29,828 nt of DNA from a virus: positions 1 through 29,828 of the IMG/VR virus record IMGVR_UViG_3300021962_010783; one strand, written 5' to 3'. A program made the translations under genes and the position numbers. The number at the start of each line of letters is the position of its first letter. The stretch's first letter is position 1. Below, in pieces: positions 1,128 through 24,552 of the stretch. The notes below the pieces were generated by a model. That model searched no databases. It worked only from the letters and a program-made list of their open reading frames with translations, and had not been told where the DNA came from.

Positions 1128-1403
1128 TTAATTTACCAACAGTTCACTTATCATGGCTTCTATTTCAGAAGCCTTTCTTACACCCACGATATTTTTTACA
1201 ATTTGCCCGTCTTTTTTAAAGATTAAAGTTGGGATACTTCTGATTGCATGCTCATTGATTGCAGCTGAATCTTCATCTGCATTGACTTTACGAATCGTAA
1301 CATCTTCATTATCAGCATATTTTTCGATCAGCCCATCAATGATTGGCCCCATTACTTTACATGGACCGCACCACGGAGCCCAAAAATCTATCACTTCTAC
1401 CAT
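1128..1403 (-). CDS. trxA: Thioredoxin
   Basis: A 91-residue single-domain thioredoxin, slightly shorter than the usual 105-110 residues because the N-terminal helix/strand is trimmed. The redox motif WCGPC lies at residues 11-15 within FWAPWCGPCK, and the cis-proline motif SIPTLIF is near residue 57. It would reduce disulphides in the cytoplasm; phage thioredoxins commonly support ribonucleotide reductase or act as polymerase factors, but neither partner is in this window. A weak AATAAATA box lies upstream in the gap after the lectin gene. Confidence 0.93.
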   Translation of the reverse strand: MVEVIDFWAPWCGPCKVMGPIIDGLIEKYADNEDVTIRKVNADEDSAAINEHAIRSIPTLIFKKDGQIVKNIVGVRKASEIEAMISELLVN

Positions 1404-1443: not shown

Positions 1444-3744
1444 TTAATTCCTAAAGCCAGTACGGACTAGATAGAAATTAGTTGTGCCGCCTGCCGTTAA
1501 CGAGGTCAGCGATAGAGTTTGTACACCAGGATAAGTTGAAGTTAGATTAGCTGAACTTGAATTGATTGTACTCCATTGACTTGTTTGAAAAATTCGGTAA
1601 CTAGGTATGGTATTTGCCCATGATGGAATTTTACCGTTTGCTCTTGCAAAAATCAAATAAACATCAGTAATCGATAGAGTCGAATTGCCATTTACGTCCA
1701 TTCGATAATAATCTTTAGAATTAAAACTTTGTGATAGAACTTTCTGATTAAACGATTCAGCGTCAGTCGAAGTTGGTAATCCAATTGAATCAATCTGAAT
1801 TACTAATTTAAAGTCATACTTACTAACCCCTAATACAGTTGAAAATGAATATGTACCAGAAGATGAAGTTGTATCTTTGCTGTGGACAGTATAAGCTGTG
1901 TCCGCTTTTAGCTTATAATATAGAGTTAATTCTATATTTTGAACGCCGACTCCTTCTGAAGAATACACTGTGCCGCTTTGCGTAAATGGCCCAACCACGA
2001 TTTCTCCATTTGAAGAGAATGCAAATCCACAAGTACCACTAGTTAATTGAGCTCTAAATAGAGTACCATCAGTTTGATTTGAATATGAATATGAGGCAGA
2101 TGTATTTGAAATGTCTGTCCAAGTAACTCCAGAGTTAGTAGATCTTTGCCACTTTACGATTGTACCAGTGTATCCACTAAGAGTCAATGTGCCCGAATTC
2201 GTTGAGGTCGTGTGAACTGCCGAGGAAACAGATCCGCCGACTGGTGGAGTTCCAGAAGTTACTGTGATAGTCTTTGCGTCTGAATTGATTGCGCTACCAC
2301 AGTTTGGCGTTTGTACTTGAACTCGATAATAATATGTACCAGCTGAACTAACTGTCTCAGTTAAACTAGTTGTCGTATTTGAAATATCAGTCCAGTTTAC
2401 ATTATCGGTTGATCGCTGCCATTTATTAATATTACCCTGTTGACCAGATAAGGTTAACTCGACTTGCCCGCCTGCGCAAATCGAATTATTTGCTGCGAAT
2501 ATTGTACCGGCTTTGGTTGGCTTAACTGCCAAGTAAATACTAGATGAGGCTAAACCGGTACATGATTGTGGGCTCGTTGAGTTTACGATAGCTCGATAAT
2601 AAGTAGTCTTAGTTAGATTCGTAACAGTTATGCTCGATGACGTGCTTGATATTGTAACACCAGCCGTAAAGAAATTATCAAATGAATATTCCCATCTCGC
2701 GATACTGCCAGTATAGCTATTGAGAGTTAGAGTCGTACTATTACTACCGGAACATACATTGATATTACCGCCGCTAATGTATCCACTTGACGCTCCAGAT
2801 ATTTCAATATTGCGAGTCGAAATCGTAATGCTTGAAGTTAGATCATTTGGCATATCTCCATATTCACAAATATATCCAGGTAAATTGGTGTTGGGCAGGT
2901 CATTCCATGAACCGGCATTACCTGAATAGAATTGGCCATAATGTTCCCCGCCTGAGTTATTCGGTTCACCACCTGCCCATTTTGCGTATTGGCCAGTTGT
3001 TGCAGTACTACCGCTAGAAAATTGTGTTCCCTTTTCAGGACCAGTTATCCAGTGCCATTTTTGTTCTACTGCGGCTTGCGAAGCGTACGCTGTAGTTCCT
3101 TTAGCAGTATTGACTTGAGTTACCTCATCCGATGCACCAAACCAACCATCATTTGCCATTAATTTCCAAACAAAGTTATTTTCAGCTTCAGAGGTCATTG
3201 TTGCCAAATAACCAGCTCTACCGAAATATGATCGGTTTTCAGCAGAGGTTTTTGAGTTTGTCCATGATGTACTACCTGATACATACTCGTAGAAGTGTTC
3301 AGTTAATGGATTATAGAATACTATGCCTGCAACAAACGTTACTCTTCGTTGAAGAGCATAACACGTACTAGAGGTAGATTTAAATTCAACTCCTCTTAAA
3401 ATAGTTTCCCAGTTAGCAGCAGTCGTCGTACCGTTAAATACTAAAATACCAGTTGTCGTATTGAAAGCCGATACTGTAATGCCCGATGGCAGAGTGGCAG
3501 TTGATCTTAATTGATCACCGCTAGTTCCACTAATGTAACTTTGTGATATTTGAACTCTAAACCCAGTTATTGTGCCGTTAGCCGTTAATGTAACGTTGGG
3601 ATCAACTTTTGTCCAAGTATTGTGACTTACTGATAGAGTAGATGAAGTTCCTCCCAAACTTACTGTCGTAGCCTGAGCCATTGCTAGTATTGGAAGTACT
3701 AACGTCAATATAGTTAATATGAAACGTCTAATCGGTGCCATCAT
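1444..3744 (-). CDS. Secreted C-type-lectin / Ig-like repeat protein with dockerin-like C-terminus
   Basis: A 766-residue exported protein. Residues 1-24 form a signal peptide ending AMAQ. A beta domain with cadherin-like character (about 28-140) is followed by a C-type-lectin-like domain (about 144-296) with hallmarks GEPNN (259-263), WND (280-282) and YICEYG (291-296). Three Ig-like repeats follow (about 320-585), each with a KWQRSTxxxxWTDISN-type core. A C-terminal module (590-766) contains a dockerin-like DVNGNSTLSITD segment and is related to part of the T9SS-tagged protein encoded at 7.3-9.3 kb. There is no obvious T9SS tail, so its release or anchoring route is unclear. It is last in the CsgG-like/barrel operon and starts at a TAATG overlap. 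Glycan or protein binding at the infected-cell surface, or virion adhesion, is inferred. Confidence 0.85.
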   Translation of the reverse strand: MMAPIRRFILTILTLVLPILAMAQATTVSLGGTSSTLSVSHNTWTKVDPNVTLTANGTITGFRVQISQSYISGTSGDQLRSTATLPSGITVSAFNTTTGILVFNGTTTAANWETILRGVEFKSTSSTCYALQRRVTFVAGIVFYNPLTEHFYEYVSGSTSWTNSKTSAENRSYFGRAGYLATMTSEAENNFVWKLMANDGWFGASDEVTQVNTAKGTTAYASQAAVEQKWHWITGPEKGTQFSSGSTATTGQYAKWAGGEPNNSGGEHYGQFYSGNAGSWNDLPNTNLPGYICEYGDMPNDLTSSITISTRNIEISGASSGYISGGNINVCSGSNSTTLTLNSYTGSIARWEYSFDNFFTAGVTISSTSSSITVTNLTKTTYYRAIVNSTSPQSCTGLASSSIYLAVKPTKAGTIFAANNSICAGGQVELTLSGQQGNINKWQRSTDNVNWTDISNTTTSLTETVSSAGTYYYRVQVQTPNCGSAINSDAKTITVTSGTPPVGGSVSSAVHTTSTNSGTLTLSGYTGTIVKWQRSTNSGVTWTDISNTSASYSYSNQTDGTLFRAQLTSGTCGFAFSSNGEIVVGPFTQSGTVYSSEGVGVQNIELTLYYKLKADTAYTVHSKDTTSSSGTYSFSTVLGVSKYDFKLVIQIDSIGLPTSTDAESFNQKVLSQSFNSKDYYRMDVNGNSTLSITDVYLIFARANGKIPSWANTIPSYRIFQTSQWSTINSSSANLTSTYPGVQTLSLTSLTAGGTTNFYLVRTGFRN

Positions 3745-4193
3745 TACATTTTATTAACTGCGTCAACTATACTCTTTTTTACAGCGCTTGCAAACGTAGT
3801 TTTTTCAAATGGCAAATTACTATCCTTTAACTCGATGAATGTTGATTTAACTGTGGTCTTTGCAGTACCTTCACCGATATAATCTTTGCCGTCCTTAGTT
3901 ATCTTAATCTTTACAATAGTTTCCTTTTTAGTTGCAGTAAAGGGACCGATTGCGATACCAGTAGTTGGTGCTTCAATACTAACAATTTCGACAATGATTG
4001 GCGAACCGTCTTGGCAAATAGAGAATTTCTCAGATAAAACTTCTTCAGTAATCTGCTTAATACCAAAGATTACTCGATTTGAATTCATTTCCGGCGCGTC
4101 TGCTGTTGCAAACACCTTTTCAACTTTGTAACAGTCACCTGCCGTAAAGCTAGTCAGAATGAATAATGATAGGATGAGAAGTAGGTTTTTCAT
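3744..4193 (-). CDS. Small secreted/periplasmic protein
   Basis: 149 residues beginning MKNLLLILSLFILTSFTAG, a clear signal peptide, with a Cys at about residue 21 that could be lipidated or form a disulphide with Cys60. The remainder is a mixed alpha/beta domain with beta strands such as ETIVKIKITKDGKDYIGEG and a C-terminal amphipathic helix. No family is recognised. It sits between the barrel gene and the lectin gene, with its stop overlapping the lectin start (TAATG), so it may be an accessory factor of the CsgG-like/barrel system. Confidence 0.75.
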   Translation of the reverse strand: MKNLLLILSLFILTSFTAGDCYKVEKVFATADAPEMNSNRVIFGIKQITEEVLSEKFSICQDGSPIIVEIVSIEAPTTGIAIGPFTATKKETIVKIKITKDGKDYIGEGTAKTTVKSTFIELKDSNLPFEKTTFASAVKKSIVDAVNKM

Positions 4194-4195
4194 AA

Positions 4196-5770
4196 TTAAA
4201 GAAGTATTTTTCCACCGGTTAGAACTTGATAGTTTAACATGTTCTTATTCCATTCATAAGTCCCGGAAAAACTTATGTTGTATTTGAATTTCTTCGTGAT
4301 TGAGTAATCCCAAGAACTAAATGGTACAAGTAGGATTCCAGAATCCCACCACTTACCTTCATAGAATTGAGTAAATGGAGAATAAACGCCGAGTAACAAT
4401 ATTGTACCTGTAATCTTTTTACTCTTGCCTGGTGTAAACAGATAGAAACCACCACCTACTGCGGATAGGTTAGTAAAGGCAGTCTTACCTAATTTACCTA
4501 CTGTAAAGTTTGCTCCACCCATTAATGAAAGCTTGCCATATCTTTTTGAACCCAATACTGTCGACGTATTGAAGAAGTCTTTATCGAAGTTTATCATGCT
4601 TGAATTTGCGGTAATTAAGGTCGCAGTCTTCTTTGTCCAAGCTCCATAAAAAGTTATATTCGAATTATTAATCGATGTTGTAAAGTTGCCTAGAAAACCT
4701 TTAGCGAAAGTATTCTTTGTATTTGAATGAGTCATACTCATTGTAAATTTAAATTGGTCCTTTTCTCCTTCCTCTGCGCTACGAATCGCAACAAGATCTC
4801 CAGTACCAATTAACGAACCGACTCTAGCTCGGTTTTTATCTCCGCTCTTGCTGCTTCCTCCCGAACTACCACCGGATCCGCCTTCTGAACCTCCACTTGC
4901 TTCTGCCGCATTTGACACAGAATTAGTCGTTCCACCGTTACCGCCTGAAGTAGTTGTGGTCGTTTCACCGTTGCCGCCAGTCGGCTGAGGATTTGTTCCA
5001 CCGGTTCCAGTTGGAGTACCTGATCCACCACTACCTGATCCACCAGTAGTTCCTCCTGAGCCAGAGCCTGATCCACCAGTATTACCACCTGAACCTGATC
5101 CACCGCTACCTGATCCGCCTGATCCTGAACCGCCAGTGTTGCCGCCTGATCCTGAGCCAGAACCACCGGTATTTCCACCAGATCCTCCAGTATTGCTGCC
5201 AGATCCATTTGAACTTCCGCCATTATTACTACTTGATCCAGCAGAACCAGACGACCCTGATCCTCCTGAGTTGCTGCCTCCATTAGCTGAACTGCTGTTC
5301 GAATTATTTGAATTACCGTCTGAGTTACCTGAACTACTTGATGATGAGTTGTTTGTTGCATTGCCTAAGGCATTGCTGACTCCACCAGTTGAAACTGACG
5401 CGACACTACCGGCTAACTGAGCAGACATTGTTGCTACAGATGTGATGTTAGTTAGAGTTGAAATAATATTGTTTGTTACAATTAGATTAGTGGTTGTGGT
5501 AGTTGCCGTAACTAAACCATCACAAGGCTTATTTGAATTTATTGCTGCAGTGGAATTCATCCATGCAGTAAATACGCCATTATTAAAATCTGCTTGAGAA
5601 AACGTGCCGACCTGTCCGTAATAAGTAACTGCAATATTCTGCTGATTGGCCGGAATAGTTATCGTCTTAATCAGTTTAGTACACGGATCTACATAAGTAT
5701 ACGTATAGCTTTGAGAAAAAGCTACAGTAGAGAAAAGTATTGAAAATAGTAGAACCGCATACCGTATCAC
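4196..5770 (-). CDS. Outer-membrane beta-barrel with long Gly/Ser repeat linker
   Basis: 524 residues. A signal peptide (about 1-19, ending AFSQ) leads to a small N-terminal domain with two Cys, a Ser/Thr/Asn-rich stretch, then about 130-150 residues of Gly/Ser/Asn repeats (GGSGSGSGG, GGNTGGSG), and a C-terminal domain (about 340-524) of alternating hydrophobic/polar strands with aromatic girdles, typical of an outer-membrane barrel. The start is GTG and overlaps the CsgG-like stop by 4 nt (GTGA), indicating coupling. The linker could display the N-terminal domain or span the cell envelope. The barrel is called from composition only; no named family is recognised. Confidence 0.75.
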   Translation of the reverse strand: MIRYAVLLFSILFSTVAFSQSYTYTYVDPCTKLIKTITIPANQQNIAVTYYGQVGTFSQADFNNGVFTAWMNSTAAINSNKPCDGLVTATTTTTNLIVTNNIISTLTNITSVATMSAQLAGSVASVSTGGVSNALGNATNNSSSSSSGNSDGNSNNSNSSSANGGSNSGGSGSSGSAGSSSNNGGSSNGSGSNTGGSGGNTGGSGSGSGGNTGGSGSGGSGSGGSGSGGNTGGSGSGSGGTTGGSGSGGSGTPTGTGGTNPQPTGGNGETTTTTSGGNGGTTNSVSNAAEASGGSEGGSGGSSGGSSKSGDKNRARVGSLIGTGDLVAIRSAEEGEKDQFKFTMSMTHSNTKNTFAKGFLGNFTTSINNSNITFYGAWTKKTATLITANSSMINFDKDFFNTSTVLGSKRYGKLSLMGGANFTVGKLGKTAFTNLSAVGGGFYLFTPGKSKKITGTILLLGVYSPFTQFYEGKWWDSGILLVPFSSWDYSITKKFKYNISFSGTYEWNKNMLNYQVLTGGKILL

Positions 5771-6480
5771 TGTCTAAATACGCCCTTTTTAATCAGCTTT
5801 GATACTACTCGAGAAGCTGCTGTCTCTAGGGCCTTTTTAGTTGATATACCGATCGTTGATTGATTAAATTTAACTTCATCAATTCCATCAAGCAATGTCG
5901 CTTTCTTTACTGTAACTGCTTCGCCTGAACCGGAGCCAGTTATAATTTCACCAGTTTCTGCATCAACGAATCGTACTTGTAAACCCATCGTAGTTTTTTG
6001 GCGAACTTCTGCTCCGCCGACTTGAATATCTTCATCTTCGCTTACTGCAAAATCATATACTTCAATATAGACAAAATACTTGGCTAAGATAACGTTGCCT
6101 TTAACTTCTATTTTATTCTGAGAAATTCCTTTGTCTGACGCTTTATCTTGAGCAATCATCTTATTCTTAATTTCAGCTTTGTCTTCTGTGAATATAAAAC
6201 GGTCAGTCATCTCTAAGTATTCTAACACGATGTTAGCAACACCCAGTCCAACTCGTTTATCTCTTAGTTCTGGATACATTGCATAAACGTCTTCATTAAT
6301 TCCAATTTGTAGAACTTGAATTGGAATAACGATTGTATCTGTATACTCGCCTAGTGCACTGATTGATTGTTTCTTTTCGAACTCAGCTTGATAGGTCTCA
6401 GTCTTTGTACTGCCTATTGATTGAGCTGATGCTACGATTGACCATAGCGCGCTAGCGGCAAGGATTAAGAGTCTTTTCAT
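5767..6480 (-). CDS. CsgG-like secretion channel protein (curli-type)
   Basis: 237 residues. The ATG that gives a normal signal peptide (MKRLLILAASALWSIVASAQ) was chosen; an upstream in-frame extension is Cys-rich and overlaps another small gene. The mature part resembles the CsgG/HfaB fold: an N-terminal strand (VIPIQVLQI), an amphipathic helix pair (VGLGVANIVLEYL), DRFIFTEDKAEI, then KVxGNVILAKYFVYIEVYDF and LQVRFVDAETGEIITGSGSG, matching the order of the CsgG core strands and transmembrane hairpin region. CsgG forms a nonameric outer-membrane pore exporting curli subunits. No Cys lipobox is present, unlike E. coli CsgG. It heads an operon with a barrel, a small secreted protein and the lectin protein. 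Family call is from pattern recognition and should be confirmed by profile search. Confidence 0.7.
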   Translation of the reverse strand: MKRLLILAASALWSIVASAQSIGSTKTETYQAEFEKKQSISALGEYTDTIVIPIQVLQIGINEDVYAMYPELRDKRVGLGVANIVLEYLEMTDRFIFTEDKAEIKNKMIAQDKASDKGISQNKIEVKGNVILAKYFVYIEVYDFAVSEDEDIQVGGAEVRQKTTMGLQVRFVDAETGEIITGSGSGEAVTVKKATLLDGIDEVKFNQSTIGISTKKALETAASRVVSKLIKKGVFRQ

Positions 6481-6482
6481 TT

Positions 6483-6587
6483 TTAATTCACAATTTTTGC
6501 TGCAAGTATTGCAATGAATACGAACCATGCCACAACTGCAGTTGCAGCCCAACCTTCATCCATAAACCAGGCAGTAAACCTTTTCAT
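6483..6587 (-). CDS. Small single-pass membrane peptide, 34 aa
   Basis: A short ORF starting MKRFTAWFMDEGWAATAV with one transmembrane helix (about residues 14-30) ending KIVN. It fills the gap between the two-pass membrane protein and the CsgG-like gene, with its stop 2 nt before the CsgG-like ATG, which argues it is real and co-transcribed. Function unknown; small phage membrane peptides can be lysis or envelope modulators. Confidence 0.6.
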   Translation of the reverse strand: MKRFTAWFMDEGWAATAVVAWFVFIAILAAKIVN

Positions 6588-6982: not shown

Positions 6983-7312
6983 TTACCAAGGATCTTCTTC
7001 CTCTTTCTTAGGTTTTGGTGCAGGCTCAGCTGCGGGTTTCTCAACAACTTTTTCTCTGATAATGGTTTGACCACCACCACTTGATGAATTGTTTTTAGAA
7101 GAGTTGTCGACGTTTAAGATAATGTTTGGTTGTTGTGCTGCTGGTTGAGCGACCTGTTCAGTCTTGGTCTCTTCCTTTTCACCTCCAAAAATAGCTTCAA
7201 TGTGAGTTGCAACATAACCACCAACTGCAGTTACCGCTGTAGTTGCGATACCAATGATAGTTTTCTTTAGCGTTGACATTCCGCCTTCGTTGCCTTCTTC
7301 GTTCTCTGCCAT
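6983..7312 (-). CDS. Membrane-anchored protein with Pro/Lys/Glu-rich tail
   Basis: 109 residues. A hydrophobic segment (about 17-35, TIIGIATTAVTAVGGYVA) is followed by a low-complexity hydrophilic tail: KEETKTEQ, a Ser/Asn/Gly stretch, then alternating Pro/Lys/Glu ending EEEDPW. The layout suggests a single-pass protein with an extended tail in the cytoplasm or periplasm. No family is recognised. It lies downstream of the T9SS-tagged gene on the same strand. Confidence 0.7.
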   Translation of the reverse strand: MAENEEGNEGGMSTLKKTIIGIATTAVTAVGGYVATHIEAIFGGEKEETKTEQVAQPAAQQPNIILNVDNSSKNNSSSGGGQTIIREKVVEKPAAEPAPKPKKEEEDPW

Positions 7313-7335: not shown

Positions 7336-9261
7336 TTAATTCGACTTAATTACTCTTTTTGAGATAATACCATTCTCTGTCGTAAGCACGGCAATGTAAG
7401 TACCAGCTGGCAAATATCCAAGGTTAGCGTTATATGAATACTGTCCTTCTGGAAATCTTTGCGACGGAAGTACTTCTGCTACTAGCTTACCACTAACGTC
7501 TCTGATTCCCAAATTAGTCTGACCTTCTTCTTTTACATTAAAGACCAAGGTAATTTGATTTGCAGTTGGGTTCGGATAGACTAGCATATCTGCAAGCTCT
7601 CCAATGTTTACGTTTGGTGCAGCAACTCGACGGACTTCAATACGACCCTCAGTTGGAGTAATATTCATATCCCTTGAATTCGCGTTACCTGCATATTTTC
7701 TGGAAACATAGAGCGGGCTCACTGTCCATTGAGTCTGTGGAGATTTTGCAATAAACTGTAAGTTAAGAACCTGATCATTATTACTGATTAGATTCTGGTT
7801 GTTGTGGGGATCATAACCTCCCCATTCAACTGTTCCATTACTTGGATTGAAGAAAGTCTGCCATGAAGCAACGGCTTCAGTAGTCTGAAGAGATTTGAAT
7901 TCCAATAGAGATTGATCGTAATTCAATGCAAGTTGAAGAGAGCTTAGATCAACTCCAGTTAAAACTTTAACTGGTACATTTACTAAGTTACCTTCCGCAA
8001 CTGACAGAGTTGGCATATTAACTTCAAAGGTTTGTAAAGTAGGATCGTCATATTCGACTGTTGCATCGATGATGTAAAGGCGTGCATTGTTTGGATTAAC
8101 GATCTTGATTGGAGTTAAACGTGCCATGTTGTAACCAGTTCCGTTAGCATCACCAGGTACAGCTACGTAATAAACTACTGAATCCGGTTGACCTGGAAGA
8201 ATATTAAATGTGAAGTTAGTTACACCGGCAATAGTTGAAGTATAGTTAGTTGAAGGGCTGTTTGTGATCGTATCATATTGGCCTTGAGTAAAGAACTTGA
8301 TATCAGGTACACTATTTGGCCATACTGAGAATCTACCAGCGATTCTACCAAATACGCCATATGCGTCAGTGATTGAGATATCGTTTGTACCGTTTACGTC
8401 AGCTGCATAGAATTCAAATGCAGTTGGAGTTGCTTGACCTAGCACCCATTGGTTGATCTTGTGAGCGTCTGCTGTTGAAATAACGTTACCGACTGACATT
8501 GTATCACCTTTAACGTAGAGGCGAACATCATAGTAAGTAGTATCTAACCATTCATCAAATGCGAAATAACCAGTCGTATCAGTTGTTGCGGTTGTCCAGT
8601 TAGTCCACGTTGAACCAGTCTTTGGTTTAGATTGAAGAGCCAGCGTTAAGTTCTTAGCACCAGAACCAGTAACGTTTTTGAAACGACCGTGGTATTGGAA
8701 TTGTTGTAGATCGAACGAACCACCATATGAATATGCAGTAAGCGTTGTATCTGCACCAGCATTAGTTGCGGCTAAGTTCGTAAAAGTTTGTACACCGCTT
8801 ATCTCTAACGAATCGATACTGCCATAAAAGCTTTGGAAGTTCGCAGAGTGGCGGAATTTAATTTTAAATAGTTCTCCATCTGGAATATCAAATGTTGCAC
8901 TACTTCCAGTATAAGCTAAGGTAATTGTAATGTGACCGTTAATAGTATCGGTCTTATATTGCATATACTGCGAGAACGTATTATTTAGAGAAGTAACGAC
9001 TGGTGCTTGACCATTAAAGGCAGCATTATCGTACCAAACTCTAAACTGCATACCTGCAATTAGAGAAGAGGTATTGTTGTGATAGTAAAGTTTTGCAATT
9101 GTCGAGTCAGCTGCAACTGTACCTACTTGGTATGAAGTATCAACAAGAACATACACACCAGCAGCGGGAGCAGTTGGGCCAGTCTGAGCCAATAATTTTG
9201 AAGGGGTAACTGCGAAAAACGCAATTAGGAGAATGCCCAGAAGGGCCTGTAATTTTTTCAT
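7336..9261 (-). CDS. T9SS-sorted secreted protein with cohesin- and dockerin-like domains
   Basis: 641 residues. Signal peptide at 1-25 (ending LLAQ). Cohesin-like beta-sandwich about 35-165; a beta domain about 190-255; dockerin-like helices with ISTADAHKINQWVLG (261-275) and DVNGTNDISITDAYGVFGR (289-307); a second cohesin-like domain about 415-545 (VNVPVKVLTGVDLSSLQLAL); and a C-terminal domain 558-641 starting YPNPT (562-566) with AGTYIAVL and ending SKRVIKSN, the signature of the Por secretion (T9SS type A) sorting domain. The protein should cross the inner membrane by Sec and the outer membrane by the host T9SS, then be attached to the surface or released. A GATAAATA late box lies 24 nt upstream of the ATG. 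An unusual cargo for a phage genome. Confidence 0.88.
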   Translation of the reverse strand: MKKLQALLGILLIAFFAVTPSKLLAQTGPTAPAAGVYVLVDTSYQVGTVAADSTIAKLYYHNNTSSLIAGMQFRVWYDNAAFNGQAPVVTSLNNTFSQYMQYKTDTINGHITITLAYTGSSATFDIPDGELFKIKFRHSANFQSFYGSIDSLEISGVQTFTNLAATNAGADTTLTAYSYGGSFDLQQFQYHGRFKNVTGSGAKNLTLALQSKPKTGSTWTNWTTATTDTTGYFAFDEWLDTTYYDVRLYVKGDTMSVGNVISTADAHKINQWVLGQATPTAFEFYAADVNGTNDISITDAYGVFGRIAGRFSVWPNSVPDIKFFTQGQYDTITNSPSTNYTSTIAGVTNFTFNILPGQPDSVVYYVAVPGDANGTGYNMARLTPIKIVNPNNARLYIIDATVEYDDPTLQTFEVNMPTLSVAEGNLVNVPVKVLTGVDLSSLQLALNYDQSLLEFKSLQTTEAVASWQTFFNPSNGTVEWGGYDPHNNQNLISNNDQVLNLQFIAKSPQTQWTVSPLYVSRKYAGNANSRDMNITPTEGRIEVRRVAAPNVNIGELADMLVYPNPTANQITLVFNVKEEGQTNLGIRDVSGKLVAEVLPSQRFPEGQYSYNANLGYLPAGTYIAVLTTENGIISKRVIKSN

Positions 9262-9285: not shown

Positions 9286-9293
9286 TATTTATC
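9286..9293 (-). promoter_or_regulatory. Late-promoter-like box GATAAATA
   Basis: GATAAATAACTAC upstream of the T9SS-tagged gene. Spacing to the ATG is 24 nt, giving an A/G-rich leader of about 19 nt without a convincing Shine-Dalgarno site. It matches the T4 late box TATAAATA at 7 of 8 positions. Confidence 0.6.
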
Positions 9294-9782: not shown

Positions 9783-10604
9783 ATGATTTTAAAAGTTGGA
9801 TCGACGGGTGATCTAGTCAAAAAATTGCAAGAAAAGCTCGGTCAAGCCGCCGATGGTAACTTCGGCCCAGGCACTGAAAAAGCTGTCAAAGAATGGCAGT
9901 CAAAAAACGGTCTTACGGCAGACGGTATCGTCGGTCCAGCGACCCTAGCAAAAATGGGAATTAGCGAGGCGGCTGCACCAGCTGCGCCAATTTCAGCTGG
10001 CCCATTAAAGTTAGAAAAATTAAAAGGCCATGTACCTGATTCGGTAATCGCACAGATTCCAGAAGTTGCAGCAAAATTCGGTATTACGAATAGTCTTAGA
10101 CTTGCCCACTTCCTAGCTCAATGCGGTCACGAGTCTGGTGGTTTCAAAGCGGTTCAAGAGAATTTAAATTACGGTGCGAAGGGTCTTCGTGGAATCTTCG
10201 GTAAGTATTTCCCAACTGATGCAAAGGCCCTAGAATACGAAAGAAAACCTGAAAAAATCGCAAACCTAGTTTACGGTAACCGTATGGGTAATGGAGCTGA
10301 GGCAACTGGCGAAGGCTATAAGTTCAGAGGTCGCGGTTACATTCAATTGACCGGTAAAGCTAACTATACAAACTTTGCAAAGTTTATTGGTGAAGACACA
10401 GTTGCAAACCCAGATCTAGTTGCAACAAAATATCCTCTCGCATCAGCTGCATTCTTCTTTCAATCAAATGGCCTTTGGGCAATTTGCGATAAGGGAGCAG
10501 ACGATGCAACTGTAACTGCAGTTACTAAGAGAGTTAATGGCGGCACAATAGGTTTGCCAGACAGAATCAAGCATTTCAAGGAGTATTACAATGCTCTTTC
10601 CTAA
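9783..10604 (+). CDS. Endolysin: peptidoglycan-binding domain plus GH19 (chitinase-like) domain
   Basis: 273 residues. Residues 1-58 form a PG_binding_1 domain (GSTGDLVKKLQEKLG, DGNFGPGTEKAVKEWQ, DGIVGPATLAKMG). An Ala/Pro linker (61-75) leads to a GH19 lysozyme/chitinase-like domain (about 80-270) with GHESGG (catalytic Glu117), a second likely acid Glu126 in VQENLNYG, and the conserved GRGYIQLTG (183-191). It would cleave the glycan strand of peptidoglycan at lysis. No signal peptide is seen, so it needs a holin or other release. It is one of only two plus-strand genes, starting a short unit that ends at a strong terminator. Confidence 0.92.
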   Translation: MILKVGSTGDLVKKLQEKLGQAADGNFGPGTEKAVKEWQSKNGLTADGIVGPATLAKMGISEAAAPAAPISAGPLKLEKLKGHVPDSVIAQIPEVAAKFGITNSLRLAHFLAQCGHESGGFKAVQENLNYGAKGLRGIFGKYFPTDAKALEYERKPEKIANLVYGNRMGNGAEATGEGYKFRGRGYIQLTGKANYTNFAKFIGEDTVANPDLVATKYPLASAAFFFQSNGLWAICDKGADDATVTAVTKRVNGGTIGLPDRIKHFKEYYNALS

Positions 10605-24544: not shown

Positions 24545-24552
24545 TATTTATA
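24545..24552 (-). promoter_or_regulatory. Late promoter box, perfect TATAAATA, leaderless geometry
   Basis: TATAAATA then ACTCT then ATG. Perfect match to the T4 late box; spacer identical to that before the nucleotidyltransferase gene. Confidence 0.75.

Follow-up and report, generated by a model that had tools for sequence, protein, structure and literature searches.

A gene for a modular protein, called the scaffold below, heads a conserved gene block in phages of Bacteroidota. The protein is rather likely to be a phage-encoded surface scaffold of the anchoring or adaptor scaffoldin kind, which would be exported by the type 9 secretion system (T9SS) of the host and would dock lectin proteins encoded in the same block. 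The window, i.e., the whole 29,828-nucleotide stretch of viral DNA analyzed here, is an IMG/VR record (IMGVR_UViG_3300021962_010783) that also encodes members of PHROG families, among them an endolysin, phage topoisomerase II subunits and a baseplate-hub/lysozyme-like protein. From the N- to the C-terminus, the scaffold consists of a signal peptide, a first cohesin, an X/CnaB-like domain, a dockerin-like module, a linker, a second cohesin, and a T9SS type A tail. Downstream of it in the window, small membrane proteins are followed by a CsgG-like protein, by two secreted proteins, one Gly/Ser-rich and the next of 149 aa, and by a 766-aa lectin protein, and this order is kept across loci with small changes (Table 1).

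Table 1. Features of the scaffold gene and its surroundings in the window.
Feature	Position	Strand	Description
Scaffold gene	7336..9261	-	641 aa, ATG start, ORF limits exact
Signal peptide	9184..9261	-	residues 1-26; N-terminal sequence and hydrophobic core among orthologues
Cohesin 1	8698..9168	-	residues about 32-188; PF00963 and VIA fold match
X-module/CnaB/SdrD_B-like beta domain	8506..8700	-	residues about 188-252
Dockerin-like module	8326..8505	-	residues about 253-312; F-hand loop at 8365-8400
Cohesin 2	7624..8049	-	residues about 405-546; best PF00963 stretch 413-543
T9SS type A C-terminal sorting domain	7339..7590	-	residues 558-641
Small one-TM protein	6983..7312	-	TM by eye; syntenic with immuto gp16, 47.9% over 48 aa
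Small membrane protein, 119 aa	6605..6964	-	55-84% identity (A5 alignment); PHROGs match weak
CsgG-fold secreted protein	5767..6480	-	ORF listed 5767-6552, ATG at 6480; AF2 model
Gly/Ser-rich secreted protein	4196..5770	-	beta-rich C-terminus; A4 alignment; immuto gp18, 39.7%
149-aa secreted protein	3744..4193	-	remote relative of CsgG-like protein; immuto gp19, 56%
Lectin protein, 766 aa	1444..3744	-	signal peptide, C-type lectin-like, Ig_7-like, CnaB and dockerin-like C-terminus
Endolysin-like gene	9783-10604	opposite to scaffold	adjoins block
T4-late-like box GATAAATA	9286..9293	-	32 nt upstream of scaffold start codon; weak

Both ends of the scaffold bear the export signals that a preliminary description of this DNA had claimed. 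The N-terminus is MKKLQALLGILLIAFFAVTPSKLLAQ, and a rule based on hydropathy, used in place of SignalP, detected an N-terminal hydrophobic core in all 72 of 72 orthologues with at least 600 aa, versus 48 of 346 background ORFs; this rule superseded a stricter first one, under which 41/72 scaffolds and 197/666 background ORFs were positive. The proposed T9SS sorting tail came through the profile check, in which TIGR04183 matched residues 561-639 with 46 bits (cut-off 23), and PF18962 matched the tail with 41.3 bits (cut-off 27). The tail model aligned with the PorU tail 6za2_A in the VIA comparison (Z 10.1, rmsd 2.2 Å, 82 aligned), and RbmA, an Ig-like fold, scored equally (Z 10.1); the fold alone is thus unspecific, and the sorting assignment is drawn from the sequence model, not from the fold.

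The two cohesin domains named in the same description were borne out by sequence and by fold. PF00963 matched the scaffold in two stretches with 48.4 bits (cut-off 24.1), and in the VIA comparisons the cohesin 1 model aligned through residues 34-188 with 3ul4/6kgc (Z 14.4, rmsd 2.6-2.7 Å, 139 aligned) and the cohesin 2 model with 2vn6 (Z 11.1, 140 aligned); a cohesin was found in 18 of 19 records. The AF2 model of the scaffold was built from 31 sequences (mean pLDDT 78.1, pTM 0.60), with low confidence in the linker (about residues 379-411). The X-module gave only a weak match to SdrD_B (PF17210, E 0.047, under the cut-off), and its region is covered in the match of the model to the CohI-X-DocII structures 4fl4/3kcp. 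Residues 32-308 of the model align over 4fl4_I and 3kcp_A, which we take to be CohI-X-DocII fragments of CipA, with an rmsd of about 10 Å, so that the domain order is common to them and the domain arrangement is not.

The dockerin-like repeats described earlier were upheld in part. The module is matched by dockerin 4uyp_B over residues 255-309 (E 0.0015, family profile against the PDB), and its residues D288 and D299, which the dockerin consensus would place at positions 1 and 12 of an F-hand loop, do not vary among the 31 aligned sequences. However, PF00404 had no match on the scaffold at E ≤ 1, and the module is named dockerin-like; judged from its residues, one of the two loops looks canonical and the other degenerate. 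The same family profile picked up cohesin, dockerin and T9SS chains together in the PDB: the T9SS tails 8glj and 8glk, the cohesins 6kg8 and 6kgc, and 4uyp_B were found with E of 0.0015-0.0035, and 5jvk matched across the tail region with E 0.00014.

The tail recurs throughout the family. In a search keyed on the CsgG-like gene, TIGR04183 scored over the cut-off in 39/40 and 37/41, i.e., 76 of 81, phage records, and the tail match is far beyond chance. It is nearly always the sole T9SS tail of a record, also in contigs of 308, 343, and 373 kb; a second tail over the cut-off was detected in G011 and G017 and a weak second match in G006, and in G032 and G033, whose contigs begin at the CsgG-like gene, the tail sits in another ORF. 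Residues P563, P565, G591, and Y622 of the tail are invariant among the 31 sequences. Median dN/dS was lowest in the dockerin module (0.06), followed by the cohesins (0.09 and 0.10), the tail (0.12), and the signal peptide (0.28), as estimated by a simple Nei-Gojobori method from 20 disjoint orthologue pairs, of which 18-20 were usable per module, with dS saturated in some. These ratios indicate purifying selection on every module, by which the tail appears to be maintained. The loci are not independent of one another and fall into 30 clusters when their scaffolds are grouped at 85% identity. Four loci (L071 and L073-L075) have a divergent scaffold, with a tail and a dockerin-like stretch that was missed by the jackhmmer dockerin profile; the L075 scaffold has 19% identity, and immuto (see below) was its only match when it was used as query.

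The scaffold gene is a phage gene and no stray host gene. Relatives of the scaffold, searched with the scaffold alignment as the key, were found on 325 IMG/VR contigs, of which 80 were kept, and a scan of viral contigs keyed on the CsgG-like gene found 92, of which 80 were kept; the scaffold as a single-protein query had no match among viral contigs, the back-translated patterns being too specific. In a tblastn search of 50,697 phage records, relatives were present only in four records of the Flavobacterium phage immuto (33% identity over 90% of the query), and the 82-aa tail alone, used as query against the phage collection, had no match and missed immuto too. A search of 84,980 species of bacteria and archaea gave no more than two loci (L083 and L084), both on block-bearing phage contigs inside published metagenome-assembled genomes (MAGs). 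One of these lies in a Bacteroidetes bin and the other (L084) in a Sphingomonadaceae bin, which suggests that this phage contig was probably mis-binned. A terminase was detected on one of the two MAG contigs and in 13 of 18 records or genomes tested. A recent acquisition of the gene from the host as a moron was rejected, as both loci in bacterial and archaeal genomes carry the phage block and one of them a terminase. The Bacteroidota host that the preliminary description had read from the tail agrees with the Bacteroidetes bin and with the host of immuto, a Flavobacterium.

The partner of the scaffold would be the lectin protein, whose Lectin_C and Ig_7 matches are both under the cut-off and which has no T9SS tail. 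Its end is homologous to the X/dockerin segment of the scaffold (34% identity over 191 aa), in agreement with the dockerin-like modules that the preliminary description had placed in both proteins. By jackhmmer, the module was found in 72 of 81 loci, and in two ORFs in 53 of those. A second dockerin protein is encoded downstream of the scaffold in 50 of the 60 loci with at least 5 kb of downstream sequence; ten of the 60 have no downstream dockerin protein, and that of immuto is located upstream. Ten second proteins were scanned for domains, and the N-terminal parts over the cut-off were a C-type lectin in six (three with Laminin_G_3 and one with Ig_7 in addition), Ig_7 alone in one, GEVED in one, and none in two; PF00404 gave matches under the cut-off in four of the ten (E 0.0013-0.047), and no enzyme domain was found in any of them. 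Among 79 close, non-independent pairs, 11 have dockerin modules of at least 0.65 identity with N-terminal parts of at most 0.31, and this combination of a kept module and a replaced N-terminal part would fit swappable cargo on a fixed plug. In nine of the 79, the dockerin modules are only 0.27-0.32 identical though the scaffolds are 0.75-0.81 identical, which would speak against tight co-evolution of the partners. The conserved pairing and the split genes of immuto make the assembly of cohesin and lectin proteins raised in the preliminary description more plausible, whereas the strongly differing dockerins of these nine pairs count against it. A diversity-generating retroelement acting on the lectin was rejected, as a reverse transcriptase was absent from 19 of 19 records searched.

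The gene of the CsgG-like protein is linked to that of the scaffold. With the scaffold as the key, 67 of 67 loci for which 2.5 kb or more of downstream sequence is available have it within 3.5 kb on that side, and the linkage was 42/42 once the scaffolds of the first set were removed; three CsgG-like loci (L078, L081, and L082) showed no dockerin scaffold upstream. The AF2 model, with a pLDDT of only 67.9, aligned with CsgG (4uv3/6l7a) at Z 13.3; the best eight rows were all CsgG or curli complex (Z 12.6-13.4), the next family reached 10.7, and the top 25 Foldseek rows were again CsgG or curli complex. At the sequence level, PF03783 matched one of 23 members (E 0.0016), and CsgG was not matched in a PDB sequence search with the protein. 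The window protein, which reads ...IVASAQSIGS, has no lipobox cysteine at the cleavage site, and for this reason it is named CsgG-like and not CsgG. The 149-aa protein was related to it by hhalign (96.8%, E 2e-10, 115 columns). PDB profile searches with the 149-aa and the Gly/Ser-rich proteins gave only chance-like matches, and the C-terminus of the latter is suspected, by eye, to be an outer-membrane barrel. The 119-aa membrane protein has 48 invariant residues in 16 sequences and is conserved above most of the block; its look suggested a holin, an assignment that PHROGs did not support. Positions 1128-1403 (-) encode a small thioredoxin-like protein (WAPWCGPCK by eye), to which blastp found related ORFs in no more than 3 of the 81 loci.

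Flavobacterium phage vB_FspM_immuto (MW353175-MW353177, Immutovirus) is a cultured relative with the same block, whose phages were isolated on Flavobacterium sp. LMO8; the available excerpts of PMC7077304 deal with this host strain and other phages. Its scaffold is 33% and its CsgG-like protein 71% identical to those of the window. Unlike the window, immuto encodes the scaffold as two proteins and has the lectin gene upstream: gp14 comprises a signal peptide, cohesin, X and dockerin, and gp15 its own signal peptide, a cohesin and a T9SS tail over the TIGR04183 cut-off, with the dockerin-lectin gp13 adjoining them. The two genes lie at L002:11598-13422, and the new signal peptide of the second replaces the linker of the window scaffold. 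This fusion/fission relation suggests, without proving, that the scaffold parts act together. By analogy, the three genes mirror the logic of anchoring scaffoldin, adaptor scaffoldin and dockerin partner in cellulosomes.

Late expression, which had been claimed from a late box upstream of the gene, is weakly supported. The T4-late-like box is present, but the word ATAAATA shows no enrichment across the window (10 occurrences versus 7.7 expected; 22 of 100 shuffles reach 10), and a box within 120 nt upstream was found in only 9 of 29 scaffold orthologues. For five of ten DATAAATA words (at 24552, 21665, 20849, 19310, and 9730, minus strand), the distance between the first base and an ATG is exactly 13 nt (p about 2e-7 in a post hoc binomial test), so that a T4-late-like box nearly touching the start codon may be a real late-type promoter; the box of the scaffold itself is not among these five sites.

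Known systems resemble parts of this arrangement. Cellulosome scaffoldins (CipA CohI-X-DocII, ScaB) have the same Coh-X-Doc order and folds (4fl4, 3kcp), whereas the protein described here is phage-encoded, has a T9SS tail, and its partner carries lectins instead of enzymes. Cellulosomes are anchored by different means, and the T9SS tail stands in the place of these anchors here. As 0 of 10 partners have an enzyme domain, the scaffold does not fall into the cellulosome scaffoldin class, and the likeness would lie in how it works only. T9SS sorting domains in phage genes have been described: in the available excerpts, the T9SS cargo of Cryophage consists of variable genes, termed a unique occurrence, for which use of the host T9SS is presumed (PMC7468147), and ORFs with T9SS sorting domains lie beside crAss-BACON ORFs (PMC6949934). 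These are, as far as the excerpts go, variable accessory enzymes/PA14 or proteins of unknown role, whereas here one conserved scaffold in a fixed block is found on hundreds of contigs. In PMC7113391, T9SS is present only as a reference. Pelagimyophages and an OM43 phage encode CsgG/CsgF, which likewise include a candidate outer-membrane pore of the CsgG fold in a conserved cluster without curlins, according to the excerpts of these reports (PMC7029224, PMC9004378); in contrast to these, the window protein has no lipobox cysteine and is encoded beside T9SS-tagged cohesin and dockerin-lectin genes. A literature search, covering mostly open-access papers without bioRxiv preprints, had no phage cohesin-dockerin-T9SS protein among the matches listed. 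T9SS-tagged phage proteins have precedent, and the conserved cohesin-dockerin scaffold is a new form of them.

The following mechanism is proposed. The scaffold would pass through the inner membrane via Sec and, directed by its type A tail, through the outer membrane via the host T9SS, a route that the sequence strongly implies, and would end up exposed on the infected Bacteroidota cell or be shed from it; infected cells probably display it. We infer that its two cohesins dock the dockerins of the co-encoded lectin, Ig, and GEVED proteins, and possibly also those of other scaffold copies, which would give chains. With less confidence, the CsgG-fold protein and its neighbors may form or gate an outer-membrane pore, which would let the tail-less dockerin proteins out or aid assembly. 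More speculatively, the lectin coat might mask receptors against other phages, or might make infected cells adhere to sugars, to particles or to their sister cells, leading to aggregation. A fuller version, in which a polymerizing cohesin/dockerin scaffold clads the cell via T9SS, with exchangeable lectins and the CsgG-like protein as a second exporter, and thereby controls binding and infection, is put forward tentatively. To our knowledge, such a self-assembling coat, put by a phage on the surface of its living host, would be without precedent.

The same genes could instead serve lysis or release, if the outer membrane were breached or remodeled by the pore of CsgG fold acting together with the surface protein and the small membrane proteins, the cohesin protein being a helper only and lectin docking incidental. 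The adjoining endolysin-like gene points in this direction, as does the proposal, in the excerpts of PMC9004378, that CsgG is a lysis-timing pore in the OM43 phage. However, the endolysin lies on the other strand, the block of immuto sits among replication and nucleotide genes, the small membrane protein lacks a holin match, and the conserved cohesin, dockerin, and T9SS modules would be left unexplained; we regard a role in lysis as unlikely.

Still more doubtful, and about equally so, are two further possibilities. Phage virions frequently bear domains of the Ig-like, lectin, and carbohydrate-binding kinds, and the protein might be an adhesin of the particle whose T9SS-like tail is just an Ig-like domain; against this, the N-terminal hydrophobic core is present in every orthologue examined, the tail is under selection and matches the sorting model beyond its Ig fold, and the gene lies outside the tail and capsid clusters in the window and in the annotated stretch of immuto. 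Many Bacteroidota live on polysaccharides, and with such cohesin, dockerin, and lectin parts the displayed lectins might tether polysaccharide for host enzymes and, in the manner of cellulosomes, nourish the infected cell, but the scanned dockerin proteins are all free of enzyme domains.

If the lectin-docking surface scaffold is the right reading, some widespread phages of Bacteroidota, with contigs of up to 373 kb, would rebuild the surface of the infected cell via the host secretion system, beyond lysis, and would keep one scaffold while the lectins are swapped. The block also gives a context for the CsgG-like genes of phages, which have an unclear role according to the excerpts of PMC7029224 and PMC9004378. 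In immuto, a cultured phage with its host, export and docking would be directly testable, as would any influence on superinfection or aggregation.
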